A stretch of 64,000 nt of DNA, taken from a bacterium. GTDB lineage: Bacteria > SZUA-79 > Acidulodesulfobacterales > Acidulodesulfobacteraceae. Positions 18,429 through 44,198 of this stretch are shown here, one piece after another. Each line of letters opens with the position of its first letter. Position 1 is the first letter of the stretch. Position numbers and translations under genes: made by a program. The notes beneath the pieces are model-generated. The model did not search any database and had not been told where the DNA came from. It saw only the letters and a list, made by a program, of their open reading frames with translations. The stretch covers positions 1-64,000 of the forward strand of contig JAKAQP010000004.1 in the NCBI GenBank assembly GCA_021822485.1, given 5' to 3'.

Positions 18429-19298
18429 TTAATCCGAGTCTGCGTTAGAAATAGCTAATTCAGCGGTTTTTTTGTTTAATATGCGGTATTCGCCCGAAGG
18501 CAGGTCGCCGATATATAGCCCGCCTATTCTTACTCTTTTAAGCATTAAAATCTTAAGATTAAAAAACTCCATAAGACGTCTTATTTCACGGTTTTTTCCG
18601 TGAGTTAAATCGACCGACAGTATAAACTTATTAGGATTTTTTCTAACAATTCTTACGTCGTCCGGCTTTAATAGACCGGTTTCTTCGAGTCTTATGCCTT
18701 TTTTTATCCTGTTGAAAAGGTCTGAGGTGAGTTCTCCTTTAACCTCTACTATATAAGTTTTTAATACATCGAATTTTGGATGCGTCAATTTATAAGAAAA
18801 ATCGCCGTCGTTGGTAAGTATCAGCATGCCCTCGCTCATAAAATCGAGCCTGCCTGCAGGAAATATATGCTTGTATTTCAAGGTTTCTTTTTTCACCAAT
18901 TCCATGACCGTTTTAAAGCCTTCTTCGGATTTTACTGCGGTAATATATCCTTGGGGTTTGTTAAGCATGATATAAATTTTAGGTTCTTCTTTGAATTTAA
19001 TTTTTTTACCGTCGACGGAGACCTCGTCGCCGGGTTTAACCGAAACCGCAAGTTTATTTATTTTTTTTCCATTTATTGCGACTCTGCCTTCTTCGATGAT
19101 TTCGTCTGCATTTCTCCTTGAAACGCCGGTATGAGTTGCTATGAATTTATTTAACCTTATTATTGCGCTTCCTGCGCCTGACGCAGGCAACGCCGATTTT
19201 ACAGACTTTACAGACTTTGATTTTGACGGATTATTATTAGCAGATTTAGGAATCGCGGAATACTTGGAAGTCTTGTTTATTTTTTTTTCTTTTGTCAA
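18429..19298 (-). CDS. RsuA/RluB-family pseudouridine synthase
   Basis: S4 domain [58 protein letters not shown]. Confidence 0.93.
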
Positions 19299-20077
19299 AA
19301 TACTATTCCCTCCATTTGGGTTGAAGCCTGAGCATAAAGTTTCATAGGGATTCGTCCCGACAGGTACGCTTGTCTGCCTGCTTCTACCGCTTTTTTCATA
19401 GCGTCTGCCATATTAACGGGATCTGCGGCTCCTGCTATTGCAGTATTAATAAGAATGCCGTCTACGCCGAGTTCCATGGTTTTACACGCATCGGATGCCG
19501 TTCCTACCCCCGCGTCGACTATTACGGGAACGGAGACGGTTTCTTTAATTATTTTTATGTTATACGGATTTCTTATGCCTAAACCGGAACCTATAGGAGA
19601 AGCAAGCGGCATAACTACCGGACATCCAATGTCTTCAAGTTTTTTTGCAAGTACCGGATCGTCCATCATATAAGGCATAACCGTAAATCCTTCTTTAACT
19701 AAAATTTTTGCCGCCTTTAACAGTTCTTCGTTATCGGGATAGAGGGTTTTTTGATCGCCTATCACTTCCAATTTTACTAGGTCTGTTCTAAAAACGTCTA
19801 ATTCTCTCGCAAGCATTAAAGTGTTTACCGCGTCTTCCGCCGTGTAACATCCTGCGGTATTCGGCAGAAGAATATACTTATCTAGGTCAATATAAGACAA
19901 TAAATTTTCTTTGGCGTTAAAATCGATTCTTCTTACGGCGACGGTTATTATTTCTGCTCCGGAAATATCCGCCGCCACTTTCATTGTTTGAAAGTCTGGA
20001 TATTTTCCGGTTCCTATTAGAAGTCTCGAGTTAAACTCGTATTTTCCTATTTTTAAAATATCGTCTTTTTTTTTCAT
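19295..20077 (-). CDS. thiG: Thiazole synthase ThiG
   Basis: [63 protein letters not shown]. Confidence 0.97.
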
Positions 20078-20160: not shown

Positions 20161-20364
20161 TTATCCGCCGGGAGCTATAGTTACCATGTCTATTTTATCG
20201 TTCTCTTTTAACATGAATTCTGCGTAAGAACTTTTGGAAATTATAGTTTTATTTACTGCAACGGCGGTGCTTTTTATATCCAGTTTGAGTTCGTCGATTA
20301 GTTTTTGAATCGTAATGCCGTTTTGTTCGACGCTGTATTCGTTTCCGTTTAATTCTATTTTCAT
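20161..20364 (-). CDS. thiS: Sulfur carrier protein ThiS
   Basis: 67 aa beta-grasp protein ending VTIAPGG (C-terminal GG). Confidence 0.92.
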   Translation of the reverse strand: MKIELNGNEYSVEQNGITIQKLIDELKLDIKSTAVAVNKTIISKSSYAEFMLKENDKIDMVTIAPGG

Positions 20365-21515
20365 AAAATTTTATTATATATTTTTTCGTAAATATAATTA
20401 TATACGGTGTCTCTTCTGACCGGAATTTTACCAGCATGTTTTATTAAATTTATTATTTCTTTTTCCTCTAAAAATTCGCCGAATTTACCTCCGGCGCTTT
20501 TAGTTATATTTTCTTCCATTAAAGTTCCGCCGAAATCGTTAATGCCGCAATCAAGAGATTTTAAAGCCGCAGGCACGCCTATTTTCGGCCAGCTGGTTTG
20601 AATATTTTTAAAGTTGTCTAAGAAGAGCCTTAAAATTGCATAAAATTTAAATACTTTATTTTCGCCTATTAATTCATTCCTTTCGATTGACTTTCTTAAC
20701 GACGTTTTTGCCGAAATAAACGGCAGGGCGATAAATTCAGTAAATCCTCCCGTTTCATCCTGAATCTGCCTTATAATACTTAAATGATAAGCCAAATCCC
20801 CGCTTGATTCTAAATGTCCGAAAAGCACCGTAGCCGACGTTTTAACGCCGAGCATATGTGCCGTTTTTATTATTTCAATCCACTTCGTCGTATTTATCTT
20901 TTGCGGGCATATTTTTTTTCTGGTTTCTTCGGCTAAAATTTCTGCCGCAGTTCCAGGCATAGAATTAACGCCGCAATCAACTAATTTTTCGATAACCTGC
21001 GCATATGTCATGCCGGTTGTTTCGGAAAGTTCATAAATTTCCTGAGGCGAAAACGCATGTATATGGAGTTTCGGAAAATTATTTCTTACAATTTTAACTA
21101 AATTAAAGTAATAATCGGGATTAGCTTTCAATTCCGGATTTATTCCGCCGGTTACGCATATTTCGTCAATGCCGATGCTTTCTATGCCATCCGAAATTTT
21201 CTCGATTATCTTATCGTAATCCAGTAAAAAAGCGTCTTTAGAATTTTTTGTTCTTTTGTATCCACAAAATTTGCAATTTAAACCGCAAATATTCGTAAAA
21301 TTAATATTTCTGTTAACGACGTAAGAAACTTTATCCGAATTAATTTTTTTATTTAGCGTATCGGCCGTAAAAATAATTTTCTTACCAGCTTTCTCTTTCT
21401 GTTCTTCAAGCAGTATAAGCAAATCATCGCCATCAAGTCTTTCGCCGGACAAAGCTTTCTGCAAAATATCGTCCGGTACGATTTTATGTGTTTTATTATT
21501 CGACAAATTAAGCAT
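20361..21515 (-). CDS. CofH-family radical SAM enzyme (CofH/MqnE/MqnC superfamily) in a thiamin operon
   Basis: CGLNCKFCGY radical SAM motif, HIHAFSPQEI, NSMPGTAAEIL, TSATVLFGHLES; 4-bp overlap with thiS; TPP riboswitch upstream. Confidence 0.85.
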   Translation of the reverse strand: MLNLSNNKTHKIVPDDILQKALSGERLDGDDLLILLEEQKEKAGKKIIFTADTLNKKINSDKVSYVVNRNINFTNICGLNCKFCGYKRTKNSKDAFLLDYDKIIEKISDGIESIGIDEICVTGGINPELKANPDYYFNLVKIVRNNFPKLHIHAFSPQEIYELSETTGMTYAQVIEKLVDCGVNSMPGTAAEILAEETRKKICPQKINTTKWIEIIKTAHMLGVKTSATVLFGHLESSGDLAYHLSIIRQIQDETGGFTEFIALPFISAKTSLRKSIERNELIGENKVFKFYAILRLFLDNFKNIQTSWPKIGVPAALKSLDCGINDFGGTLMEENITKSAGGKFGEFLEEKEIINLIKHAGKIPVRRDTVYNYIYEKIYNKIL

Positions 21516-21614
21516 TTTAATATATCTTCAATTTATTACTTAAATAATACATTATGCCTGAAGATAAAGCTTTTGGAAAGAAAAACTGCAGAAAAGAAAT
21601 AGTAAGCAGAAAGT

Positions 21615-21714
21615 CTATCTTCCCTACGACGGCATTATCCGTATCAGGTTCAAAGGGTTGCGTGCTTTAACGGCTACGCTCTCAGCCATAGTTACAATAA
21701 TACGGCACCCCTGA
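21615..21714 (-). promoter_or_regulatory. TPP riboswitch (THI element)
   Basis: Minus strand reads CAGGGGTGCCGT...GGCTGAGAG...ACCCTTTGAACCTGATACGGATAATGCCGTCGTAGGGAAG, the canonical TPP aptamer core. Confidence 0.96.
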
Positions 21715-21774
21715 TTTCATTGCATACCGACCTAAAACATATAAACTATCGATATATTATAAATTATACCATTA

Positions 21775-22545
21775 TTATTTTATAATTCCAACCAAAAAAC
21801 TTTTGCTTTTATTGTTATAAACTTTAACGCAAAAAACTTTTACCGTTAAAACGTCGTGTTTTGCCGTTAAAGGAATAAAATTATAGGATAGAAAAACGGA
21901 TTTTTTAATATGTCCGAATGTTCCAGTCCTTTTATTTATAAACTTTTCAGCTTTTTTAGCCGGAATTTTTAAAAAATTAAATTTGCCTGCATTTTTGTAA
22001 ACTATCGTTAAATTTTTTGAAAAATAATAAATATTTCCGTGTTCTATCTTTACGAAATCAATATTTCTGTCGGTTCTCATGTCGTTCATTATGACTTTAT
22101 TTTGATTGCGGTACGTTAAATAGAAACCGCCTTTATTCATTATATAACCGCTAAGCGACGCTTTTACGTAATTTTTAAAATATTTGACTGAATCGACGTA
22201 GCTCATAAGTTTATTCAGCCTTGCCTTATCTTCAGAATATAGCTTATTCCATAAAAAAACATTATTCCTGTCATGCTTATATTTTGCCGGATTAACTATT
22301 TTTATATAGGTAACCACGTCGTTTTTACTTATAGCCTGTCCTTTCGCCTTTAAATAAAGCGCATAAATTATAGGATTTGTAGCATAGACTCCATTGCACA
22401 CAGTATTGCCGTTTCCGTCGGCAAACGACTTTCTGGCCGACGTCGGATTAAAATTAAGAAATACAATCGCCGACAACACTAAAATAAATAAAAATGAGGT
22501 CTTAAAAATAGATACGCCGTTTTTAATCGTTTTATTCTCAGTCAT
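21775..22545 (-). CDS. Hypothetical exported protein
   Basis: Intact 256-aa ORF with N-terminal hydrophobic segment; no family recognised. Confidence 0.6.
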   Translation of the reverse strand: MTENKTIKNGVSIFKTSFLFILVLSAIVFLNFNPTSARKSFADGNGNTVCNGVYATNPIIYALYLKAKGQAISKNDVVTYIKIVNPAKYKHDRNNVFLWNKLYSEDKARLNKLMSYVDSVKYFKNYVKASLSGYIMNKGGFYLTYRNQNKVIMNDMRTDRNIDFVKIEHGNIYYFSKNLTIVYKNAGKFNFLKIPAKKAEKFINKRTGTFGHIKKSVFLSYNFIPLTAKHDVLTVKVFCVKVYNNKSKSFLVGIIK

Positions 22546-22641: not shown

Positions 22642-23640
22642 TTAGGTAGCAAATAATACATTTTGCTTATTTAAAAGTAACGAAATCCTTTTTTCTGCAA
22701 GGTCGATGTACTCTTGTTTAATATCATAGCCTACAAACTTCCTTCCGGATTTTAATGCCGCCGCCGCAACAGTTCCGCTTCCCATAAAAGGGTCGAGAAT
22801 AATGTCGTCTTTAAAAGAATAGAGTTGAATTAAACGAAACGGCAGCTCTTCCGGAAATGGCGCAGGATGCCCTATTCTTCTTGCGCTCTCGGCTTTCATC
22901 GTCCATATAGATTTAGTCCACTCCATAAACTGCTCTTTAGTAATAGTGTTTTGCTTGCCCTTGCCGATTCTGCTATAATCGCCTTTTGAAAAAACTAAAA
23001 TATATTCGTGTATATCCCTTAAAATAGGATTTGCGGAACTCATCCAACTTCCCCAAGCCGTCGATGGACTTGCGCTTGAAGACTTATTCCATATAATTTC
23101 GCCCCTCATATTGAAACCTATATTAATCATCATCGTAGAAATATAATCTGAAAGCGGTATGTAGGGTTTACGGCCGAGATTAGCTAGATTTATGCAAGCT
23201 CTGCCGCCGTTGATTAAAACTCTATAAGTTTCTCTAAACGAATTTTCCAACAGGCTTAAATACTCTTGCAGCGAAAGATCGTTATCGTATTCTTTTGAAA
23301 CATTGTACGGAGGAGAAGTTATCATTAAATGTATAGAATTATCAGGCAACTCTTGCATATTTTCCGCAGAACCTAATATAAATTTGTTAACCAATTCTTC
23401 GGGCAGTTTTCTTTCGGCTTTGTCTTCTATTTCTTTAGTTTTAAGCGTTGAATATAGTTTGGAATTATAAAAACGGGAACTGTCGTGGTTTATTCTTCCG
23501 TTTGTTCCAAATGCGCTTGATTCGGTACCTTTTTTTAGTTTTACTGCAGACGATTGTCGAAATGATTTCGTATCCACAATCTGCTTTTTTTGCTCTTCGT
23601 TTAACTCTTTTATGTCAATGGATTCGTTTATGGTTTTCAT
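22642..23640 (-). CDS. Beta-class site-specific DNA methyltransferase (probably N4-cytosine, type II)
   Basis: TSPPYNVSKEY (motif IV) precedes DPFMGSGTVAAAALKSGRKFVGYD (motif I). Confidence 0.88.
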   Translation of the reverse strand: MKTINESIDIKELNEEQKKQIVDTKSFRQSSAVKLKKGTESSAFGTNGRINHDSSRFYNSKLYSTLKTKEIEDKAERKLPEELVNKFILGSAENMQELPDNSIHLMITSPPYNVSKEYDNDLSLQEYLSLLENSFRETYRVLINGGRACINLANLGRKPYIPLSDYISTMMINIGFNMRGEIIWNKSSSASPSTAWGSWMSSANPILRDIHEYILVFSKGDYSRIGKGKQNTITKEQFMEWTKSIWTMKAESARRIGHPAPFPEELPFRLIQLYSFKDDIILDPFMGSGTVAAAALKSGRKFVGYDIKQEYIDLAEKRISLLLNKQNVLFAT

Positions 23641-23657
23641 GATTTTTCTTTTTTTAA

Positions 23658-24521
23658 TTATGTATTATTTATTAAATTTAAAAATTTTTCCGCTTTCGCA
23701 ATATTGGTAGATTCTCTATCCGCTTCAGCAATCAATTCGCCAAGATTACGTTTAGAAATCATAGAAGAAAAATAGTTCATATCGCTTTCTATCAGATGTC
23801 TTATTAATCCTAAAAGCATTTCCGGTCTTTCGATAGTTTTAAAGTCTCCTTTCGGAGTTGTTTTAATAAATTCTTCTTCCGTAGGTTTAGGATTGAGCGA
23901 CCAAAAACCCTGAATTACTCCTGATGTTTTAAGAAAATCAACTTTTTTAATATAACTATCAGTAATAGGACTGTTACCTAATATTATTATCGGAATTCTT
24001 GTCGAAGCATTGCCGGAAACTCTGATATTTATGGATTTACCTGTTGCTTTTAACATAGAGTCGGAACGAAGGATAGACGGATTGCCTTTATGACGCTTAT
24101 AATCTCCTAAAAACTCTATTTCATCAGGTCTATGAAATTTGTAATTAGAAATTATGCTCATTTTAACTTCAAAAATTAATTTTATATTTTCTGCACTTTG
24201 GTTATCATTTTCAGTTGTACAAAACGCAAGATCTGCTCTTGATCTTTGCGTCAACCCCAATTCTTCGCATATGACGCCGTTTACGGCATATAATCCTAAT
24301 TCTTCGGCAACTGGTTTAAATAAAGTTTTACACCATTTTTCCGTAAATTCGCCTATAAGCGAATTTCTGCTCTGCAAGGTCTGCCCTTCTGCACGCATAC
24401 CTTTAGGAATATAAGCATAATATTCGTTGTTTAAATTATAAAAAAGTTTTTCCGGAGAAGCAAAACTTTTTAACGCCTCTTTAAAAAAATAAATTTCAGT
24501 TTCGTTATTCCATAAAGTCAT
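23658..24521 (-). CDS. Putative type II restriction endonuclease (PD-(D/E)xK-like)
   Basis: Adjacent upstream of the methyltransferase, same strand; SRADLAF...KLIFEVKMS resembles a D...ExK active site. Confidence 0.62.
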   Translation of the reverse strand: MTLWNNETEIYFFKEALKSFASPEKLFYNLNNEYYAYIPKGMRAEGQTLQSRNSLIGEFTEKWCKTLFKPVAEELGLYAVNGVICEELGLTQRSRADLAFCTTENDNQSAENIKLIFEVKMSIISNYKFHRPDEIEFLGDYKRHKGNPSILRSDSMLKATGKSINIRVSGNASTRIPIIILGNSPITDSYIKKVDFLKTSGVIQGFWSLNPKPTEEEFIKTTPKGDFKTIERPEMLLGLIRHLIESDMNYFSSMISKRNLGELIAEADRESTNIAKAEKFLNLINNT

Positions 24522-27286: not shown

Positions 27287-29086
27287 CTAATCGAAATAAC
27301 TCTTATTTTTAGGCCTATATATAGGATGAAGATATACTACGCCGGGTCCTTTTACTTCGCCGCCGGAATAAACTCTGTAAACGGCCTGATTTAATCTTAA
27401 ATTTGCAAAACCGTCGGTATCGAAAGACTGCATTTTTTCGTAAGTCTTTGTGGTTCCCTGAGAAATAGTATTGTCGTCCGACAGCAGTTTTCCTATATAT
27501 GGATTAAAAACCGCCCTGTCGTCCTGCTCGGTTATATTTTCCGTAATTTTAAGCTTATATTCCTTATCGCAAATTTTAGAAGCTTTTTCCCTTGAATAAT
27601 CGTCGCTTAACGCAAGCCAAATAGTCGATCTTATATTTCCTATCAAAGAATTTAATTTTTCTTCGGAGCCGAGTTTCAACTTTAAAGAACTGTAACTTTG
27701 GGTTAAAACTATATTAATCGCTTTAGACTGTCTGCATCTTGCGAAAAATTCAGCGTCCGATTCTATATTGCCGGAAGTCACGTAATTCTGATATTCGTCG
27801 CATATGAACAAGACCGGTCTTTTAGTATTTACTTTATCGTCTATGACCGATTTGTAAACCCTGTTTAGAACCGTCCTGAAGTAATCTAGTTTCATCATTA
27901 TGCCTATAATTTTTCCGGTTAAACCGTATTTTGATTCCGGCATGTTTAATATAACTATTTTCCCGGAATTAACGACTTCATGAAAGCCGGGAAAATTAAG
28001 CTTTTCCTGAGGAGCGCAGAAAGTATCTTTAAAAACAGGCTTTATAAAATCGCTGCATACCCTTAAAGATTCGCTCTTTATAATGGCTTTTGTCCTTTCG
28101 TCGAGACCTGCGTAATCCGCTCCAGAAAAATAAGACACCGCTAATTTAAGCTCGTTTGCGTAAGTTTCGGTTTTATTCGATTTTATTTTTATTAAATTTT
28201 TTGCATAATCTATAATGTTGCTAAGTTTATTTTCGTCGGACAATATTTCGTAAATATCGCTTAAGGCGACGTAATCAATGCAAAGCCTTATTATATCTAT
28301 GGAATTTGCCAAAAGATTTATAGATTTATCTTTCCAGAAACTGTCCTGTCTTCCGTCGTTTGAATTCATATTTTCTAAAACGGAATATAATCTTTCTGCA
28401 ATAATTTTGGCATCTAGATGCGGATAATGTACGGGATTAAAGTAGTAACCGGACCCGGGTTCGATTATAACTATATCTTCTGCTCTTCCATTTCGTTTTA
28501 GTATATAAACCGCCTCTTTCCAAAAATCGCCTTTAACGTCTAGTATAAGCCCGCCTATCTTTTCTTCCTGCGACTTGTTTTTATATTTAGCCAACTGGTC
28601 TAAAAAAGGGTATGCGCAGGCGGTTGTTTTTCCGGTGCCCGTAGAGCCAAATACTAATACTCCGGTATAAAGACCCTTTGCGTCAATTGTAAGCCAATCC
28701 GGTTTTTCTTTTCTGTTTCCGTTTTTTTCGTGTATTTCTCCTATCACCAACTGAAGTTCCGGGCTTTCCGGCCATATCAGGGCTCCTGTATTTTTTGATT
28801 TTTTGACCGTTAGTTTATTTTTAATTTTTTTACCTTCGTCAGGTTTAAAATATAAATATTTGTTGAAAATTATATTAGTCAAAGTGTATGAAGACGCAAA
28901 CCATGTGGTTAAAGGAATAAAAATAAACGCAAGCTTTACTCCTTTAAAATAAGCAAAATAGTAAGATATTTTTTCATCGAAGAAAAATCTGGATATAAGA
29001 AACAGATAAACTAATTCTATTGCGAAAATTCCGCCGGAAACCGATAATTTTACGATAAAAGCACCGTTTTTTTCGCCGTTTTTCAT
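27287..29086 (-). CDS. Type IV coupling protein (VirD4/TraD family ATPase)
   Basis: GVLVFGSTGTGKTTACAYPFLDQL, LILDVKGDFWKE, RPVLFICDEYQNYVT, ARCRQSKAINIVLTQSYSSL. Confidence 0.9.
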   Translation of the reverse strand: MKNGEKNGAFIVKLSVSGGIFAIELVYLFLISRFFFDEKISYYFAYFKGVKLAFIFIPLTTWFASSYTLTNIIFNKYLYFKPDEGKKIKNKLTVKKSKNTGALIWPESPELQLVIGEIHEKNGNRKEKPDWLTIDAKGLYTGVLVFGSTGTGKTTACAYPFLDQLAKYKNKSQEEKIGGLILDVKGDFWKEAVYILKRNGRAEDIVIIEPGSGYYFNPVHYPHLDAKIIAERLYSVLENMNSNDGRQDSFWKDKSINLLANSIDIIRLCIDYVALSDIYEILSDENKLSNIIDYAKNLIKIKSNKTETYANELKLAVSYFSGADYAGLDERTKAIIKSESLRVCSDFIKPVFKDTFCAPQEKLNFPGFHEVVNSGKIVILNMPESKYGLTGKIIGIMMKLDYFRTVLNRVYKSVIDDKVNTKRPVLFICDEYQNYVTSGNIESDAEFFARCRQSKAINIVLTQSYSSLKLKLGSEEKLNSLIGNIRSTIWLALSDDYSREKASKICDKEYKLKITENITEQDDRAVFNPYIGKLLSDDNTISQGTTKTYEKMQSFDTDGFANLRLNQAVYRVYSGGEVKGPGVVYLHPIYRPKNKSYFD

Positions 29087-30003
29087 TTTAAAACTCTCCC
29101 TACGATATTTCTTACTGCTCTTATATCAGAATAATATGTCCATAAAGAAGGTTCGAGCATTTTTAGGTCTTCCGCCGCAACATAAGACCTTTTATTTAAA
29201 ACAGCCGCCGTTTTTAAAATTTTGACAGTTTCCCGCCATCTTCTGTCGGAAACTATCACCTGCTTATTTTTTAATTCTTCTCTGATTAAATACATTTTAT
29301 TTAAAATTTCATCGTTAATTTCTACGTTTTCCGCCTTTTTGTTTAGGATATTTATATCTTCCCTTTGCAAAAAAACTTCTTTTCCGTATTTAGAAATTTC
29401 ACATTTTTCAATATCTCCGTCTTTAATTCCAAGTAATTTTTTAAAATTTTCTTCGCTTCTGACGGGCAGAATTTCCATTCTAAATAAAAATCTGTCGTAA
29501 AGAGGCAAAAGATTTGAATCGGAAGACTTGTCAGGCCTCTCGTTAGACGACGCAAAAAGGCTTATTAGCGGAATTTTCACGGGTTCGGAGTTTCCGTTAT
29601 AAAATATTCTTTCATTCATTATCGATAACAATGAGTTTAACGTGGAATGATGACCTTTAAAAAATTCGTCTATCAAAGCAATATCGCAATTGTCGATGCC
29701 GATTTTATTTTTATTCCGGCTGCGGCTATCGCCTATTCCTTCACAGGAAAGAAGTTCCTCTATTTTAGTTGCCGGCGTCATTTGAAAATCAAAAAATTTT
29801 AAACCTTTTATCCTGCCTGCAAGCGCTTTTAAAACAGCCGTTTTTGCGAGTCCTGGGCCGCCTATTAAAATTGAATGTTTTCCTGAAATAACGGATAAAA
29901 CTATCATATCTACGGCATTTTTTCTTTCCAGAAAATTTACGTTTAAGCCGTCTTTTATGGCGTTGATTTTATCTGCTATCGTATATGCATTATTATCGTT
30001 CAT
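29083..30003 (-). CDS. MoxR/RavA-type AAA+ ATPase embedded in the T4SS cluster
   Basis: ILIGGPGLAKTAVLKALAG, IALIDEFFKGHHSTLNSLLSIMNERIFYNG, LFASSNERP; 4-bp overlap with the coupling protein gene. Confidence 0.9.
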   Translation of the reverse strand: MNDNNAYTIADKINAIKDGLNVNFLERKNAVDMIVLSVISGKHSILIGGPGLAKTAVLKALAGRIKGLKFFDFQMTPATKIEELLSCEGIGDSRSRNKNKIGIDNCDIALIDEFFKGHHSTLNSLLSIMNERIFYNGNSEPVKIPLISLFASSNERPDKSSDSNLLPLYDRFLFRMEILPVRSEENFKKLLGIKDGDIEKCEISKYGKEVFLQREDINILNKKAENVEINDEILNKMYLIREELKNKQVIVSDRRWRETVKILKTAAVLNKRSYVAAEDLKMLEPSLWTYYSDIRAVRNIVGRVLK

Positions 30004-30026
30004 AATTTTATTTTGCGTTCAAGCCG

Positions 30027-31325
30027 TTAAATCCCGTTCATATATAAAGGTCTTAAAAAAATTATCTTAATAGGAGTACCCGCCGGCAAAGTAATACTAA
30101 TGTTTTGATTGGACTGCGCATAACCGTTAAGTCCGTTTTCTGCGTCGTTAAGTTCGTTTTGCGCTACGTTTTGCCGAACCTGATCCTGAAAAGTATATGG
30201 ATTAGAGGAGTTAACGCTTGACCCTCCTCCTACGAAAATAGACGCCGCGCCGACTATGCCCTGCGCTATAGAAGTTAATATATTTCCTGCATAATGATTA
30301 TGGACGTCGCCCTTTACGCCGCCGGAACCGTCGGGCATCATCGCTATTGCGTCTATGGTCAAAGATTTTCCGGAATGCTCTATAATCTTATTAAAATTTA
30401 TGTTAAGCCTGTTTAAAGAATGTTTTACGCTTACCGTTCCAAAAAATTCGGCTCCTTTTTCGAAAACCCGTTTGCCGCCGCGATAATAACCCGAAACGGA
30501 TACGGCTATTACCGGAACGGACGTATTATACGAAAAAATTTTATATTTCGTGTAGGCGTTTATTACTGCGCCTTGCGGGACGGCTATTTCTGAATAAGCT
30601 GTTTTCTGCGGAAAACCGCCGTTTTTTCGCTGGCCTTTGACGGTTTTTAAACCTCTTTCTTTATTTAAAATATATTTTCCGTAGCTTGCTTTTATAAAAA
30701 CTACGGTTTTTTTCGTTATCTGAGCCGCCGAACCGCTTCGAGAGTTCAAGTCGTGTCCGCCGTATCCGTTACCGTTACCTACGCCCGAATTAAATTTTAT
30801 CCTGCGGTTCAAATTATCTGCTTCTTTTTTAAATTTAACGTTAAATTTTTTTCTTCTTATCTTATTCGACTTGGAACTTAAACGATTTTTTTCTACGGAA
30901 TTACTTTTACCGCTTTCATTAAAAACCGCAGGAGAAAACATTTTTTTATCGTTTATAACGGTATTGTTCTTCACGACTTTTTTCACGACTTTTTCCGGTT
31001 TTCCGCTTAATATATATTTTATAAAAAGCAAGGCGGTAATTAATATAGCTAAAATTATCAGCGGTAATTTAAAATAGCGTAAAAAATCTTTTCCAGATAA
31101 TTTTTTTGGAACTGCAGGGTTTGAATTATAAATATCTTTGCCGTCGTCGGCTCCGTCGTCATATATGGCGTCGACCGTTTCATTTTTGTTTCCGCTTTCA
31201 TTTCCGCTTCCGCTTTTACTTTTTCTTTTACTTTCGTTAAAATTAACGTAATTATCGTTATAACTGTCGCCGTTCTCTAATTCTTCTTCTTTGATTACGT
31301 TAGAATCGTTTAAATTTTCAAACAT
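30027..31325 (-). CDS. VirB10/TrbI-like T4SS scaffold protein
   Basis: Single N-terminal TM; AVPQGAVINAYTKYKIFSYNTSVPVIAVSVSG...FFGTVSVKHSLNRLNINFNKI...TLPAGTPIKIIFLRPLYM. Confidence 0.82.
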   Translation of the reverse strand: MFENLNDSNVIKEEELENGDSYNDNYVNFNESKRKSKSGSGNESGNKNETVDAIYDDGADDGKDIYNSNPAVPKKLSGKDFLRYFKLPLIILAILITALLFIKYILSGKPEKVVKKVVKNNTVINDKKMFSPAVFNESGKSNSVEKNRLSSKSNKIRRKKFNVKFKKEADNLNRRIKFNSGVGNGNGYGGHDLNSRSGSAAQITKKTVVFIKASYGKYILNKERGLKTVKGQRKNGGFPQKTAYSEIAVPQGAVINAYTKYKIFSYNTSVPVIAVSVSGYYRGGKRVFEKGAEFFGTVSVKHSLNRLNINFNKIIEHSGKSLTIDAIAMMPDGSGGVKGDVHNHYAGNILTSIAQGIVGAASIFVGGGSSVNSSNPYTFQDQVRQNVAQNELNDAENGLNGYAQSNQNISITLPAGTPIKIIFLRPLYMNGI

Positions 31326-31328
31326 CCT

Positions 31329-31991
31329 TTAAGCTCCTCCAAGCTTTAAACTGCTGAAATAAACCACTTCTAAACCGAATGGATACTGAACGCTTCTTTT
31401 GATTCTTTTAAGAATTAATTTGTCTTCGTAGGCCGCCGCATTCTTCGCTGAAGTATCGGAATTAGATATTACGGTTCGTATAACGTAAAGTTTTAATTCG
31501 TCGTGATTGACGGTCTGCTTAATTAACTTTATTTTTTTAAATTTTATTTTTGAAGTAATATCTGCTTTCTCCATTTTTTGAACAAACCGGCTTCTTATTA
31601 TAGCCCTGAGCGTTTTTTTGCCGTATGTTTCCGACATTTTATTTAATGCGCGGGAAAGTTCCGTTTTTATCATTATCGAATTAAATCCGGTAAATTCCCT
31701 TACGAAACTTTTTGAAAAATATACTATTTCACCCATTCCCGTTTTATTATTAAAGGGCAGATTTCTCAATACCTTTGCGTTTCCAGCCGAATTAACCCTT
31801 ATTACTACCGGAATTCTGTTTGCTTTATAAGTATAAAAAGCAGTCAATAAAGATGTCAAAGTAATTAAAGACATTAAGACTATTATTATTTTTAGGGCCG
31901 TATTCTGTGCTTCCAAATCGCCCCATATTTCGTAAAACAACCTGCCGTTTCTTTTTTTATGACCGTCTTTATAATTAAAAAGATTAGACAT
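31329..31991 (-). CDS. VirB8/TraE-like T4SS inner-membrane protein
   Basis: Cytosolic N-terminus, single TM (LKIIIVLMSLITLTSLLTAFY), beta-rich periplasmic domain; position next to VirB10. Confidence 0.65.
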   Translation of the reverse strand: MSNLFNYKDGHKKRNGRLFYEIWGDLEAQNTALKIIIVLMSLITLTSLLTAFYTYKANRIPVVIRVNSAGNAKVLRNLPFNNKTGMGEIVYFSKSFVREFTGFNSIMIKTELSRALNKMSETYGKKTLRAIIRSRFVQKMEKADITSKIKFKKIKLIKQTVNHDELKLYVIRTVISNSDTSAKNAAAYEDKLILKRIKRSVQYPFGLEVVYFSSLKLGGA

Positions 31992-32056
31992 ATAGTATTT
32001 ATCCTGATTTTCTATATTTATAATTTTTAATATTTATTTTTTATAATTTTTTTATA

Positions 32057-33250
32057 TTATGAAACGGCGGCAATTCCTGCAGAAACGACTTTTGATTTTA
32101 CGTTTTTAATTTTTTCATGCGCTTCGCCGCTTATACCTTCAAATAATTTTGCTACTAAAAAAGGAACCGAAACGTTTATTACTATCATTACGATAAAAAC
32201 GGTTATAACTTCCGCAAAGGTAAATAATCCAAGAATATTGCCTATTCCGCTTCCCGTAGAAGGCATATTTGCAGATTCCATTTTGCTTAATATAGTAAAA
32301 AAAATAAGCTGTTCGAGAGCAACCATAACCCCCCAGAACGATATTTCTACAAACATTTTAAACCATTTACCGAATATTCCTCTCATATAAGGTATAGTTT
32401 CAAAACCGAGTATTATTGGACACATCGAAAATAAAAGCCCTAAAAATACAAGCTGAATTAACGCCATAAAAAGTTGTACCGCAAGATAAATTATATTAAA
32501 CAAAAACCATATTATACCCATAAGAACGGCTCCGGTTATGGCATGCATAGCGCCGGCAAGCCACGAAACCGGATTGAGATTCCAGCCGCTTTCTACTGAT
32601 GCAGTACCGTTTGAAGAAATGGTCGGTATGGAAACCGAATGAATGCTGCCCGAAATAGAAGAAACTATCTGCGAAACAGACTGACCTATCCCCAATATGT
32701 TTTGCTTTATCAGATAAAGCTGAATTTTATCGGCTAAAGTCAATATAAGCTGGGCAAAATTAGACTGCCCGGTCTGCTTCCATGAAAGAAAGCCTATAGC
32801 TATCAAAGCCGTTCTTAAAAATAATCCGTAATAATTAAAAACAGCTCCCGTTAATTCTGCGCGGTATCCTTCAAAAAAAGAAAGGACTATTCCAAGCGCA
32901 AATAAAAAATAGAACATATATGTAACGAAGGTACTCAGTTCGGAGTCGTTATTCAATGCCGAAGGAATAGAATCGATAGAAAGCATGCTTAAATCTTCGC
33001 CGTTTTTAAGTTTTGAAATAGAAAGGGCGGATTGACTCACCGCCGTATCGTTTGATTTTGCCCCTTCCTTTTTAGAAGAAGCGGCTGAGGCGGGAGGATT
33101 GGCCGCATAACATTTTTTTGCGTTAAAAATAGAGGAAACAGACCAAAAAATTAACAATATAGATAAAATTACCGCCAAAAATGCAGCAAGGATTATAAAA
33201 AAATTATAGCGCAAATTATGCTTTAAACCTGTATATATTTTCATTTCCAT
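32057..33250 (-). CDS. VirB6/TrbL-like polytopic T4SS membrane protein
   Basis: Multiple TM helices; FWGVMVALEQLIFFTIL; cluster position. Confidence 0.65.
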   Translation of the reverse strand: MEMKIYTGLKHNLRYNFFIILAAFLAVILSILLIFWSVSSIFNAKKCYAANPPASAASSKKEGAKSNDTAVSQSALSISKLKNGEDLSMLSIDSIPSALNNDSELSTFVTYMFYFLFALGIVLSFFEGYRAELTGAVFNYYGLFLRTALIAIGFLSWKQTGQSNFAQLILTLADKIQLYLIKQNILGIGQSVSQIVSSISGSIHSVSIPTISSNGTASVESGWNLNPVSWLAGAMHAITGAVLMGIIWFLFNIIYLAVQLFMALIQLVFLGLLFSMCPIILGFETIPYMRGIFGKWFKMFVEISFWGVMVALEQLIFFTILSKMESANMPSTGSGIGNILGLFTFAEVITVFIVMIVINVSVPFLVAKLFEGISGEAHEKIKNVKSKVVSAGIAAVS

Positions 33251-33359
33251 GTTTTTTAATTTCCATTTTTTTAAACATTTTTTAAAAATATTTGTTTTAA
33301 TTTTTTTTTAATTATTAAGAATCGGTTAAGGTTAATGGGTAATGAGTTGAATATAAAAT

Positions 33360-34496
33360 TTACATAGTAGTTTTAGTATAATAATTTAAACCGGGGGTCG
33401 GATTTGTTTGCGGCATAATAACCGAACCGGTATGTTCTTTTTTAATTTCTTCCGCCGATTTATCTAATTCTATCTGCTTAAGCTGACTTTCCATATAACC
33501 TAAATTCTTTAAACTAGATGCGTTTTCTTCAGCCATAATAGTTAAAATAGAACTTTGATACGCATAATAATTTGAGCTGTTTTTTAATGCCTCCCCGGAA
33601 ATTTCGTTCATAAATTCAGAGCCTTCCAACTCCGTCTTGTGAGCTCTTGCCGCGGATAATCCAGCATTATAAAGCCCTGAAGATGCGGTATCGATTAGCA
33701 ATCCGCCGGCTAAATCGGTGCATCCTCCTACGGGATTTCCGTTATCATCAAAAGAATAACCGTAGTCAAGGGAAGAACAGTTCAGAGTTTCGTTTGCATT
33801 GCCAGAATTTCCTCCCGAATTGAAAATTGTCTCCCGGGAAAACAAAGCGGAACCGTTTTCAAGATTAGATTTATTTAAAGAGCTCTCTGGGTCTGCCGAA
33901 CCTCCCGATGCAAATACTTCGGGATTATAAGCGTTTTCTCCCGAAACAACGGCGCTGAGATTGCCGTATTCCGACGATTCGTAATTGATATTGGAATTAA
34001 TACCTGATACAAGATTTTGTAAAGAGTTCGTTTCGGTATCGCTTCCGGTCAAATCCTGCGGAATTTGATTAAAAGCCGAATTAATTTGACTGTTTAAATT
34101 ATTTATACTGTCTACGGCATCTCCTACGGAATTGACTAAATGGTTTATTTTATCGAAATTTATTAATATATTCTGATACTCTTCCTGCATATTCGAAACG
34201 TCTGCAGTCAGTTTATCTACTGTTGCCATTGCTTCCGAAAGTCCGGGTCCGGGATTAAAAAGAGGTCCCCCGCTTGCCCCCGGCGCGTAACCAAGAGTCC
34301 CCGCCAGCCCTTGAAGGGCAGAAAATGCGCCGTTTGCCGCAGTTTCGACGGACTGTATCTGACCGGATATCGCGCTTATATCCGGAATCGGCAGGGGCAA
34401 TCCGTAAGAAACTCCCGTCAAATATGCCGAAACTGTAAAAATAGCTATAACCGATGCTATCAGCGGTTTATTTTTTAGGTTTATCTTTATTTTCAT
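33360..34496 (-). CDS. VirB5/TrbJ-like periplasmic T4SS protein
   Basis: Signal peptide, coiled/helical region and C-terminal IMAEENASSLKNLGYMESQLKQIE; position between VirB4 and VirB6. Confidence 0.5.
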   Translation of the reverse strand: MKIKINLKNKPLIASVIAIFTVSAYLTGVSYGLPLPIPDISAISGQIQSVETAANGAFSALQGLAGTLGYAPGASGGPLFNPGPGLSEAMATVDKLTADVSNMQEEYQNILINFDKINHLVNSVGDAVDSINNLNSQINSAFNQIPQDLTGSDTETNSLQNLVSGINSNINYESSEYGNLSAVVSGENAYNPEVFASGGSADPESSLNKSNLENGSALFSRETIFNSGGNSGNANETLNCSSLDYGYSFDDNGNPVGGCTDLAGGLLIDTASSGLYNAGLSAARAHKTELEGSEFMNEISGEALKNSSNYYAYQSSILTIMAEENASSLKNLGYMESQLKQIELDKSAEEIKKEHTGSVIMPQTNPTPGLNYYTKTTM

Positions 34497-34524
34497 TCTA
34501 TTTTCTCCGCTTATATAAAAAACT

Positions 34525-37110
34525 TTACAAATTTTTATTGATACCGTAAGGTCCGTTAGGATATTTTTCCGCCAGAATATAAAGCCGTTCCTTTAAAGTT
34601 TTATTCGGATAAAGCCGTTCTATCCGCCTTTCTAATTCTTCGTCTTCGGACGATTTACAGCAAAGCCAGTATTCAAAAGGGTCTGGGGAATTTCTTATAA
34701 CCGACGAATCTTTTCCGAATTTTAAAAGATATTCGGAATAATGTCCTTTGACTACCTTAAGATTTTTTACTATATTTATCTCTTTTTCGTTTAGTCCGCA
34801 CGTTTTTAAGTCGTTTTCCGAAACTTCTCCGTCAAGCTGGCAAAATATTTTTACCGACGAATTTTCTATTATGCTTTTACCTACGGCACCGGCCTTTAAC
34901 AAATCGCCCGGCTCCTGCGTAATGCTCCATACCATAGAACCCCATTTTGCGGACGTTTTGTACAGATGCATTATCAGCTCCGCAAGTTTAGAGTCCCCCA
35001 TAAATTCCCAGCATTCATCGTAAAAGAAAAAAACTTTTGCCGATTTATCGTACATTTTCTTAAAAGATATATTTTTTATAATTGCGAACACTACTTTTTG
35101 CAAATCTTCGTGTCCTTTTAACTTCTGCAGGTCAAATATTACTATTTTATTATCTATATTTATACCGTTCTTCCTGTTTATAAGCATTCCGTAAGGAGAA
35201 GAAATATCCGTCCACTGAAACAGATTTTTACCCATTTCCATAGCTCTTTGTTTATCTTGAATATCCCTGGCTTCGCCGTAATCGAATAAAATGTTGTTTA
35301 TATCCGATATTATAGGCATATCTTCATAGTCATCTATATTGTCGTAAGCCGCCTGCACGGCTCTCGATATTATGGTTCTGTCGTTGGGCGATAATTTTTT
35401 TTCCGGTTCTACCATTAGTCCTATTATACCCGTCAGAAAAACCATAATATCGGGGTCGAAAGCCTCTTCTCCGTTTATTTCTTTGACGAAGTATTTTTTC
35501 GGAGGGAAAGGATTTATGCAGTAAGAGCCGTCGAGGTCGATTTCGATATAGTCGCCGTTAAATATTTTGCAGAATTTTTTGTAAGTTCCTCCTATATCAA
35601 CCCCTACTATATGGTAATCGTCTCCGGATATGTAAAAATTGCTTAAAAATCCGTTCAGCATAAAACCTTTTCCGCTTCTCGTTTTGCCGAAAACTATTCC
35701 GTGTTTCGACGGCAGACGGTTTTCGTAAAGGTCGAGTCTTACCGCTTCCCCTCTGTCGTTTATTAACGGAATAGCGCATCTTTCCGTCCCTCTAAACCCT
35801 TCGTTAAGCGGTATGAAAGGCGCTGCCGCAGTCGAAATAGACGTTTTAAATCTCCTGTTAAAACGCGACTGACCGGGCAAAAAAGAAAGATAAAGTTTAT
35901 GATGCTCCATGTCGTCTATTATGCCCTCCATTCCGTTAAAATTTTTAAAGGATTCAAGGAGTTTTACAGCCTTCATATTCAAGTCTTCCAAGTTTCTGGA
36001 CTTTATTCTAGCACATAAAGAAAACTCTACGACTTTCTTTTTAAGTTTTGAAACCGATTCTAAAAATTCATCCAGTTGTTCGGTGATATTAACTCCTTTA
36101 TAATCGGTATATCCGCCATTTACGGCTTCCGTCAGGCTTGCCTTTATATTCCTGTCGGTCTGTATTTTTTCCATAGTTTTTTCCTGTTCCGGAATATTAA
36201 AAGATACTGCTATATCGTAAGGAAAAAAATCATCTTCCGTCCCTGACCCGTTTAAGTTTAAAAGGGGCGTTATACCGAATGAATCTATTTTTGACGGAAG
36301 TCTGTGCATGTTTATAAATTTATAATAATATCCGTCTATATAAAAAAAATCTTTTTTAATTTCGGCATACGAATATATAATCTGACTCCTGAAAGTAGAA
36401 CCATCCAGCATATTTTCCCATTTCGGCGCTTTAACTCCGGACGTAAATCTTAAAGGGTTTAATTCTTCGTAAAAATAGTCCACAAGCTCCTGATTATCCA
36501 TTCTTTTTAAATTTAAATCCAGATTGGAAGATATAAAGCCGAGATTATTCTCTACGTTTTTTAATTTTCTTTTTATAACTTTTTTATCGCAGCCGGCGTT
36601 TAATTTTGCGATAGAATTAATAGAAGACTTTAAATCTATCTTAATAAGGCTGCCGGCAAAATCGGCAAATTTAGACGTTAATCCGGTTTTACCCGTATTT
36701 GAGCGAAGATTTAAACCGTTAATAGTGCAAAAAAGATATATATTAACGTTTTTAATATTTTTAGACCATAGATGCTTTATCTTATTTTCTTTGATATATT
36801 TAAAATTTTCGGGCGGCACGGAAGAGCTTTCGTAGTTAGAAATAAATTTTTTATTTTTGTCGTCTATTTTGTAAATCCATTGAAGACTAATGTTTTCGTC
36901 CATAAGATTGAGCAGAAGATCGTTAACGTAAGCAGCGTCGTTTACCGTTTTATTTTCGGAGAGATAATAATCAAATCCTTTTACCGAAAAACCTATCGTG
37001 AACGACCCGTCCGCTCCGACGGCTATGCCGTCGTTTACCGACAAAAGGTTAACGTATTTATTTAATGAATCCGAAGGCTCTATTTTTTTTAAAACTGAAT
37101 TTAACAGCAT
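34525..37110 (-). CDS. VirB4/TraC-like T4SS ATPase
   Basis: KHGIVFGKTRSGKGFMLNGFL...VGVDIGGTYKKFCKIFNGDYIEIDLDG...VFFFYDECWEFMGD...SMVWSITQEPGDL. Confidence 0.9.
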   Translation of the reverse strand: MLLNSVLKKIEPSDSLNKYVNLLSVNDGIAVGADGSFTIGFSVKGFDYYLSENKTVNDAAYVNDLLLNLMDENISLQWIYKIDDKNKKFISNYESSSVPPENFKYIKENKIKHLWSKNIKNVNIYLFCTINGLNLRSNTGKTGLTSKFADFAGSLIKIDLKSSINSIAKLNAGCDKKVIKRKLKNVENNLGFISSNLDLNLKRMDNQELVDYFYEELNPLRFTSGVKAPKWENMLDGSTFRSQIIYSYAEIKKDFFYIDGYYYKFINMHRLPSKIDSFGITPLLNLNGSGTEDDFFPYDIAVSFNIPEQEKTMEKIQTDRNIKASLTEAVNGGYTDYKGVNITEQLDEFLESVSKLKKKVVEFSLCARIKSRNLEDLNMKAVKLLESFKNFNGMEGIIDDMEHHKLYLSFLPGQSRFNRRFKTSISTAAAPFIPLNEGFRGTERCAIPLINDRGEAVRLDLYENRLPSKHGIVFGKTRSGKGFMLNGFLSNFYISGDDYHIVGVDIGGTYKKFCKIFNGDYIEIDLDGSYCINPFPPKKYFVKEINGEEAFDPDIMVFLTGIIGLMVEPEKKLSPNDRTIISRAVQAAYDNIDDYEDMPIISDINNILFDYGEARDIQDKQRAMEMGKNLFQWTDISSPYGMLINRKNGINIDNKIVIFDLQKLKGHEDLQKVVFAIIKNISFKKMYDKSAKVFFFYDECWEFMGDSKLAELIMHLYKTSAKWGSMVWSITQEPGDLLKAGAVGKSIIENSSVKIFCQLDGEVSENDLKTCGLNEKEINIVKNLKVVKGHYSEYLLKFGKDSSVIRNSPDPFEYWLCCKSSEDEELERRIERLYPNKTLKERLYILAEKYPNGPYGINKNL

Positions 37111-37120
37111 AAATTTATTC

Positions 37121-37435
37121 TTATTTCTCCTTTTCAGAATTTAAAACGTACAGCTCTTTTTTCGCTAATATAAAAGATAAAAGCGAATTCGTATAAAAAT
37201 CCGGTTTATTTTTCTTATACTTTTTTATAAATATTAATGTTGCGGTATCCAATAATATCGCTATAATAATAGCTTTTTTAAATATTAATATAGAAGCCGT
37301 AGTCAAAAAAATAAAAAATGCCCAGTCATAAATTTCAAGCCCGAATCTAGTTATTTTTCCGTATATTTCGCTGTATATTTTAAATTCGGTATATCCTTGC
37401 GCATTTATTGCTTTGTTCTGTTTTTTTTGAGTCAT
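37121..37435 (-). CDS. VirB3/TraL-like small membrane protein
   Basis: Small TM protein directly upstream of virB4-like gene. Confidence 0.55.
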   Translation of the reverse strand: MTQKKQNKAINAQGYTEFKIYSEIYGKITRFGLEIYDWAFFIFLTTASILIFKKAIIIAILLDTATLIFIKKYKKNKPDFYTNSLLSFILAKKELYVLNSEKEK

Positions 37436-37487
37436 TTTTTATTTTATTTATATGTATTGTTATAATTATTTTTATTTATGCAGCATT

Positions 37488-38033
37488 TTAAGGCTGTCCT
37501 ACAGTAGTTGCGCCATTACCGGCTCCAATATTCATACCTGCTACTGAGCCTCCCGCATTCTGGACTATTCCGAGTATTGCCCCTGTTATAGTCGGAGCAA
37601 GCATAACGCCTGTTCCTGCCGCCGCAGTTATAAACGCTTTTCTTGCGGCATCGGGTTTGTGCTGTTTTATATCGTAAAACCCTTTAACTAAACCTATTGT
37701 AAGGGTAGCGGGAGCAAGCCTGTAGCATATCCACGTCGTAGCTTCGTTTAAAATGCCTGAAGCGCCTATACCGAGCGAACCCTGATTTAAGTTTATCATC
37801 GCGGAAGCGTTTGAAGCGACGGAGATAATACTTCCGAAAGCAAAAACCGATAACAAAACCTTGCCGTAAGATACATTAGTTGCCTTATTTTTTTCAATTT
37901 CGGATTGAATTTTCGCGGCGATATTTATTGAAGCGTTAAGATAAAAATTTTTAAACGTTTCAATAGTTTTAAATGCTTTAAAAGGATTAAAATAATTAAA
38001 ATAAACGGCGTTTTTTAATTTTTTTGCGGACAT
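37488..38033 (-). CDS. VirB2-like pilin/major T4SS subunit candidate
   Basis: Long leader then hydrophobic Gly/Ala-rich segments; first gene of the T4SS operon. Confidence 0.5.
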   Translation of the reverse strand: MSAKKLKNAVYFNYFNPFKAFKTIETFKNFYLNASINIAAKIQSEIEKNKATNVSYGKVLLSVFAFGSIISVASNASAMINLNQGSLGIGASGILNEATTWICYRLAPATLTIGLVKGFYDIKQHKPDAARKAFITAAAGTGVMLAPTITGAILGIVQNAGGSVAGMNIGAGNGATTVGQP

Positions 38034-43151: not shown

Positions 43152-44198
43152 TTAGCTATATTTTTTTATTAGCGTATAATTATTGGTTCTCTGCGCAGGA
43201 ATAAAACCGGCGTCCTTAACCAGCCGAACCATTAATTTTTCATCGACTGTTCTGTTTGCCGTTCCCGCCGCTTTTACTACGTTTTCTTCAAGCATTGTGG
43301 AACCCATATCGTTAGCTCCGAAACTTAACGCGATCTGCCCCATTTTCGCCCCCTGCGTTACCCATGATGCCTGAATATTATCGAAATTGTCTAAAACTAT
43401 TCTTGAAACCGCAAGTACTTTAAGATAATAATGACCGAAAACACCCCTTGGATTAAGCGACGTATTTTTGCTTTGAAAACTCCAAGGAACAAAAGCCTTA
43501 AAACCGCCGGTTTTATCCTGAAGGTTCCTTAGTTTTAAAAGATGCTCCACTATATCTTCGTCGGTTTCTATAGTTCCGAACATCATGGTGGCGGAAGAAT
43601 TTAAACCCGCATTGTGAACTTCTTCCATGACTTTAAGCCACTGCCCGCTGTCTATTTTATTCGGACTTATTTTTTTTCTTACCCTGTCGACTAATATTTC
43701 TGCTCCTCCGCCAGGGACGGAATCCAAGCCTGCTTCTTTCAAAAGATTTACGGTTTCTCTGATAGTCATATCGTTTAAATGGGCGATAAAAGTAATCTCC
43801 GGCGGAGAAAACGCATGTATATGTATATCGAAATTTTCTTTAATATCGTTTAACAGATTAATATAGTATTCTATAGTTATATCGGGATTTAATCCTCCCT
43901 GAAGAAGAATTTGGGTGCCGGAAAGCTCTTTTGTTTCCCTGATTTTATCGAAAATTTGCTCTTTAGTCAGCACGTAAGCATCGTCGTCCCGTATTCCGTA
44001 TTTTTTGTAAAAAGCGCAAAATTTACATTCCGAGGTGCAGACATTGGTATAGTTAATATTTCTGTCTATAATAAACGTAACTATATCGTCCGGATGTTTT
44101 TCCTTTCTTATGCCGTCGGCTATTTTTCCAAGTTCGATAATGTTATCATTTTTAAATAGCGCCAAAGCATCTTTTTTGCCTATTCTATTTTTATCCAT
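43152..44198 (-). CDS. mqnC: Cyclic dehypoxanthinyl futalosine synthase (MqnC)
   Basis: CTSECKFCAFYK, HIHAFSPPEI, VPGGGAEILVDRVRKKISPNK, MMFGTIET, WSFQSKNT typical of MqnC. Confidence 0.9.
   Translation of the reverse strand: MDKNRIGKKDALALFKNDNIIELGKIADGIRKEKHPDDIVTFIIDRNINYTNVCTSECKFCAFYKKYGIRDDDAYVLTKEQIFDKIRETKELSGTQILLQGGLNPDITIEYYINLLNDIKENFDIHIHAFSPPEITFIAHLNDMTIRETVNLLKEAGLDSVPGGGAEILVDRVRKKISPNKIDSGQWLKVMEEVHNAGLNSSATMMFGTIETDEDIVEHLLKLRNLQDKTGGFKAFVPWSFQSKNTSLNPRGVFGHYYLKVLAVSRIVLDNFDNIQASWVTQGAKMGQIALSFGANDMGSTMLEENVVKAAGTANRTVDEKLMVRLVKDAGFIPAQRTNNYTLIKKYS

Follow-up and report, generated by a model that had tools for sequence, protein, structure and literature searches.

Thiazole synthase ThiG needs dehydroglycine, and the known suppliers of this compound are ThiH and ThiO. 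In the window, i.e., the whole stretch of 64,000 nt of DNA that was analysed, thiS and thiG are encoded together with a radical SAM gene of the CofH family. This raises the question of whether the CofH-family protein takes the place of the usual supplier. ThiO supplies dehydroglycine to ThiG in aerobes, and dehydroglycine as a fragment of tyrosine is established for ThiH (PMC9046217). CofH abstracts a hydrogen from the tyrosine amine and breaks tyrosine into fragments, one of which, a p-hydroxybenzyl radical, is added to ribityldiaminouracil; as of a 2021 review, no structure was known for CofG/CofH (PMC8498797).

Genomic context of the CofH-like gene

The annotated features are listed in the order of transcription on the minus strand.

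21763..21791 (-): promoter-like sequence TTGGAA-17-TATAAT with extended -10 (TGG); a 10/12 consensus match only, function not implied
21603..21722 (-): TPP riboswitch aptamer (RF00059; 69.4 bits, E = 1.4e-11)
20361..21515 (-): CofH-family radical SAM gene, 384 aa, proposed thi-linked tyrosine lyase (dehydroglycine synthase); Radical_SAM and CofH_C domains
20161..20364 (-): thiS, sulfur carrier with GG end (TIGR01683, 61.9 bits)
19295..20077 (-): thiG, thiazole synthase (PF05690, 367.3 bits)
18429..19298 (-): RluB-like pseudouridine synthase, 4-bp overlap with thiG (PF00849, 71.2 bits; S4, 42.3 bits)

The original prediction had described a TPP riboswitch ahead of a CofH-like gene that overlaps thiS by 4 bp and is followed by thiG, and all of these elements were recovered. 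The riboswitch is full length and lies above the Rfam gathering score of 54.3 bits, with the promoter-like site located ~40 bp upstream. The CofH-like protein contains the CxxxCxxC motif at residues 77-84 as well as HAFSPQEI and PGTAAEIL, and its stop codon shares the sequence ATGA with the thiS start. The interval initially assigned to the operon (20161-21720) holds thiS and the CofH-like gene but omits thiG and cuts the riboswitch slightly short at its start. According to the neighbour table, the RluB-like gene is not found beside the operon in genomes with the order thiS-thiG-cofH, and it is therefore probably a mere transcriptional neighbour of the thi operon.

Elsewhere in the window, a conjugation or type IV secretion-like cluster (27287-38033, minus strand) is located on the same contig as housekeeping genes. 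It includes a TraG P-loop protein (34525-37110) and a TrbI-like protein (30027-31325). An N6/N4 DNA methylase gene with an upstream gene of 287 aa that has no Pfam match is found at 22642-24521 (minus strand); the latter gene is possibly the restriction endonuclease partner.

Thiamine-related genes in the host genome and its relatives

The host genome is a MAG of 1.6 Mb and 90% completeness, and by its kinship the host is taken to be an uncultured relative of Ca. Acidulidesulfobacter. Named relatives include Ca. Acidulidesulfobacter diazotrophicus (L042; deposited as Acididesulfobacter), and the phylum of these relatives is Ca. Acidulodesulfobacteriota; they are described as facultatively anaerobic acid-mine organisms (PMC6776010).

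A search for thiH, thiO and cofG, proposed along with the original prediction as a way to refute it, returned none of the three in the host or family by curated HMMs. For ThiH (TIGR02351), the best match in the host and in each of 29 genomes from the same family is the thi-linked gene itself, at ≤39 bits compared to a cut-off of 380 (37.2 bits for the window protein). CofG matches in the 30 genomes do not exceed 63 bits (cut-off 213) and correspond to the thi-linked gene, MqnE/MqnC, and a further, weak radical SAM match. A hidden ThiO was considered for three DAO matches in relatives. Two of them were scanned, and in both cases the best-scoring model is that of L-2-hydroxyglutarate oxidase; one match exceeds the cut-off of this model and the other is truncated by a contig end. 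The third (G023) is a similar match, and the candidates were rejected. The absence of ThiH and ThiO is not unique to this family. Two distant genomes, G289 and G152, encode ThiG and have neither ThiH nor ThiO by the same models. The respective loci (L163 and L164), and similarly L165 in G336, contain thiG, some with thiS, thiE or thiC adjoining; the genome G336 likewise has no ThiH and no ThiO above the curated cut-off.

Of the three CofH-family proteins encoded in the host genome, the two that are not thi-linked are bona fide members of their groups: MqnE (L004, 470.8 bits) and, as originally annotated, MqnC at 43152-44198 on the minus strand (TIGR03699, 491.2 bits, cut-off 428.1). Since MqnE and MqnC are present as separate proteins, the futalosine pathway does not need the thi-linked gene. 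ThiC is found in 29/30 family genomes including the host, where a ThiE-like gene adjoins thiC (thiE-thiC pair). A second ThiC-family protein (L151:4029-5342, G000:C82:43067-44287; 560 bits to NF009895) is encoded directly downstream of CobB and has equivalents in nearly every family genome. It is possibly a ThiC paralogue for the B12 lower ligand (benzimidazole) and not the thiamine ThiC.

Synteny with thiS and thiG across the family

The thi-linked gene and thiG are both present in 27 of the 30 genomes and both absent from the other three (G008, G015 and G024); these are 85-86% complete, and the joint absence may be partly a matter of assembly. The other 26 orthologues share 63-90% identity with the window protein. 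The gene adjoins thiG on the same strand in 26/27 genomes, with thiS beside them wherever the stretch that was read reaches it. Two gene orders are found: cofH-thiS-thiG in 19 genomes and thiS-thiG-cofH in seven, the second of which matches E. coli thiSGH. The exception is the complete genome G020, where the gene is located 36 kb from thiS-thiG on the same contig and the riboswitch precedes thiS-thiG. A TPP riboswitch heads each of the 24 adjacent operons with readable upstream DNA, although four of these score slightly under the gathering score (50.8-54.0 bits vs 54.3). Two adjacent operons were left out of this count because of a contig edge (G018) or a stretch that is too short (G016).

The synteny of TPP riboswitch, cofH-like gene, thiS and thiG, for which a survey had been suggested, is thus conserved family-wide with a rearranged order. 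Each of the genomic checks put forward with the original prediction came out in agreement with it. Of the 27 genomes with the thi-linked gene, 26 have the same gene set, and the association is therefore not due to chance. Moreover, the linkage survives a change of gene order, which points to function rather than common descent alone. A functional link of the gene to thiazole synthesis is highly probable.

Further genes were observed around the thi loci. In L042, L045 and L048 (Ca. Acidulidesulfobacter-type), a MoeB/ThiF-like E1 gene, a gene for an 81-aa protein, and a CysK-like gene are encoded upstream of the thi operon. This cluster is preceded by a SAM riboswitch in L045, and the riboswitch is also found in L046 and L047. 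Two MAGs contain a second thiG on a separate contig (G003:C11:330-1064 and G010:C34:316-1050), representing a duplicate or a strain mixture.

Phylogenetic placement and profile scores

A maximum likelihood tree was built from 70 proteins including 23 thi-linked orthologues, 19 CofH, MqnE and MqnC. The 23 thi-linked proteins form one clade (support 100/100) with a long stem of 0.69 changes per site. MqnE and MqnC fall in separate clades, and grouping of the thi-linked proteins with either is rejected by AU tests (p = 1.9e-4 for MqnE and 1.4e-4 for MqnC). Together with the separate bona fide copies, these tests led to the rejection of an MqnE or MqnC paralogue. The clade is placed outside the 19 CofH rows at a support of only 68/52, and nesting with the CofH of G070, G347 and G215 is not rejected (p-AU 0.51); several of the CofH rows are long-branched, which calls for caution in this part of the tree. 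Both a sister position to F420-type CofH and an origin within that group are compatible with these results. The tree check intended for the original prediction hence came out in two parts: the proteins are located outside the MqnE and MqnC clades (AU p ≤ 2e-4) but not cleanly outside CofH, the NCBI cut-offs of which are just passed.

In terms of profile scores, the window protein passes the CofH models narrowly, i.e., by 4 bits for NF005609 (430.2, cut-off 426) and by 23 bits for TIGR03551 (396.9, cut-off 374.1). All 23 clade members match both models at E below 1e-100; the G020 copy, at 416 bits, is below the NF005609 cut-off of 426. The models for MqnE (TIGR03700, 317.1 vs 434.6) and MqnC (TIGR03699, 356.1 vs 428.1) are not passed, and neither is the ThiH model. 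The identity to both MqnE and MqnC is 39%.

Outside the family, a survey of 386 genomes was used. The closest sequences are CofH proteins of 42-46% identity, with the next best matches in G070, G347, G215 and G076 at 390-419 bits compared to 643-726 bits for family members. CofG is present in all four of these genomes and no thi genes are found near their CofH genes, which are therefore regarded as ordinary CofH. The thi operons of G070, G347 and G215 have the order TPP-thiS-thiG-thiE-thiD-thiC and lack thiH (the thiS of G215 was not recognised by the quick scan used), and the ThiO-like oxidases of these genomes score below the ThiO cut-off. A thi-linked CofH was also sought in other lineages, and none of the 19 best-matching non-family loci that were read has thi genes in reach. 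In the unrelated genome G085 (L100:341-3058, G085:C328), a CofH gene follows thiG on the same strand at a distance of ~0.5 kb. Since the protein is a typical CofH (475 bits) and CofG is present in this genome, it was not counted as a thi-linked case; its position could be chance or could reflect use of the CofH by-product.

Conserved residues and predicted structure

The Cys triad, E159, E192, H220, R296, D327 and R368 are invariant in CofH, MqnE, MqnC and the thi-linked clade. The clade differs from CofH at position 122, which is Thr in 23/23 thi-linked proteins and Gln in 19/19 CofH. Further changes are Thr227 to Ser, Pro263 to Ala/Thr/Ser, Val310 to Pro, and Phe86 to Tyr. Position 122 is part of a segment after strand beta3 that reads VTGG in the clade, QGG in CofH and MqnC, and V-GG or V-SG in MqnE. 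The corresponding segment contains Thr-Gly-Glu (TGE) in ThiH of E. coli, T. carboxydivorans and G214, and also in NosL, compared to AGE or MGE in the solved HydG sequences. The Thr122 parallel between the clade and ThiH is suggestive only.

In ThiH, tyrosine is held by T299, R300, R306, S318 and S321, and E158 touches the tyrosine carboxylate (PMC9046217). E158 aligns with E192, which is invariant in all four groups and hence does not discriminate between them. No clear counterparts of the other five residues are found in the profile alignment, which is weak in this region (14% identity overall). The R300 column holds no Arg in the window protein (P310, or W309 if shifted by one). As the crown of R300, R306 and Ser residues is not carried over, tyrosine would be bound in the CofH manner.

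An AlphaFold (AF2) model of the window protein was obtained (pLDDT 79, pTM 0.83). Its best PDB match is MqnE (6XI9/6XIG; TM 0.82, 28% identity), followed by HydE, HydG and tyrosine-bound ThiH at a TM of about 0.7. MqnE is the sole close relative by sequence with a solved structure. The structural likeness contrasts with the score below the MqnE cut-off, the separate clade, and the presence of the genome's own MqnE.

Proposed function of the thi-linked protein

The reading best in line with these data, to which we assign a probability of about 75%, is a CofH-derived tyrosine lyase that would feed dehydroglycine to ThiG, ThiH-like in its role without being ThiH. The protein belongs to a known CofH-type radical SAM subfamily and the role itself is known; it is predicted to be a non-orthologous replacement of ThiH. 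With CofH it shares the CxxxCxxC, HAFSPQE-type and PG..AE motifs, the CofH_C domain, and presumably the cleavage of the tyrosine Calpha-Cbeta bond; it differs in the four positions 122, 227, 263 and 310, in the lack of a CofG partner, and in its location in a TPP-riboswitch/thiSG operon. The likeness to ThiH concerns the proposed role, the link to thiG under TPP control, the operon position (thiS-thiG-X in Ca. Acidulidesulfobacter corresponds to E. coli thiSGH), the Thr-Gly motif after strand beta3, and the Glu aligned with E158. In contrast to ThiH, the thi-linked protein is of another subfamily and has a C-terminal CofH_C domain, and the Arg300/Arg306/Ser crown is not conserved in it. ThiO, an FAD-dependent enzyme of DAO fold that is absent here, comes from another protein family.

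The operon would be expressed under the control of the TPP riboswitch. The [4Fe-4S] cluster bound by the CxxxCxxC motif would cleave SAM, and the resulting 5'-deoxyadenosyl radical would abstract a hydrogen from the amine of L-tyrosine. Breakage of the Calpha-Cbeta bond would release dehydroglycine (2-iminoacetate), from which ThiG would make the thiazole together with ThiS-thiocarboxylate and DXP. The aromatic half would leave as p-cresol, as in ThiH, an exit that is expected because no CofG is present. An F420-type CofH carries out the same first half-reaction, after which the 4-hydroxybenzyl radical is trapped on ribityldiaminouracil for CofG. The substrate, the product, the p-cresol by-product, and the hand-over to ThiG are thus assigned by inference. 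By analogy, release of dehydroglycine from a CofH-type enzyme would follow from the same bond cleavage as in ThiH.

Among the alternatives, a dual-purpose CofH would still move the 4-hydroxybenzyl group to an acceptor (ribityldiaminouracil or other) and pass dehydroglycine to ThiG as a co-product. CofH is known to fragment tyrosine (PMC8498797), and the fold and most family-invariant residues, including E192, D327, R296 and R368, are retained. However, the genome has no known partner that would use the adduct (no CofG), and a dead-end adduct would drain a riboflavin precursor, which makes this alternative unlikely. A role in thiazole synthesis with a substrate other than tyrosine, or at a different step, is quite unlikely. 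It would account for the differences from CofH at T122, S227, A263 and P310 and for the missing tyrosine crown of ThiH, whereas ThiG chemistry needs dehydroglycine, no other supplier was found, and CofH, the closest characterised relative, uses tyrosine.

The scores over the TIGR03551 and NF005609 cut-offs and a position sister to or nested in CofH would agree with a genuine CofH that serves FO/F420 precursor synthesis and is located in the thiamine operon only incidentally. This explanation is very unlikely and was rejected mainly for the missing CofG, which is absent from all 30 family genomes yet present in the nearest outside relatives G070, G347, G215 and G076; the family-wide riboswitch and thiSG linkage and the consistent replacement of Gln122 by Thr also speak against it. 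Finally, a futalosine-enzyme paralogue sitting by chance in the operon of one lineage has the family resemblance to MqnE and MqnC in its favour and is close to refuted by the adjacency kept in two gene orders, the joint absence with thiG in three genomes, the riboswitch in every readable case, and the separate MqnE and MqnC.

Implications for thiamine synthesis and annotation

The open-access library that was searched contains no paper on CofH together with ThiG, nor on CofH together with thiamin and ThiH; subscription journals may differ. The curated CofH equivalog models TIGR03551 and NF005609 accept the window protein. NCBI models would thus name the thi-linked protein CofH, probably wrongly, and annotation pipelines would imply F420 synthesis. 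If the tyrosine lyase reading is true, it corrects this annotation in a group that has no CofG.

It is conceivable, if rather doubtful, that the protein represents a third, phylum-wide route to dehydroglycine, in which the CofH by-product 2-iminoacetate was first exploited and a stand-alone tyrosine lyase then arose after CofG loss. In that case, some lineages that have CofH, CofG and ThiG without ThiH, such as G070, G347 and G215, may still draw their thiazole precursor from CofH. For thiamine pathways with apparent gaps, the thi-linked protein offers a concrete candidate. If the proposed function is true, vitamin B1 synthesis would include a supplier derived from CofH as a non-orthologous replacement, which would also show how a 4-hydroxybenzyl-radical transferase can become a simple lyase.
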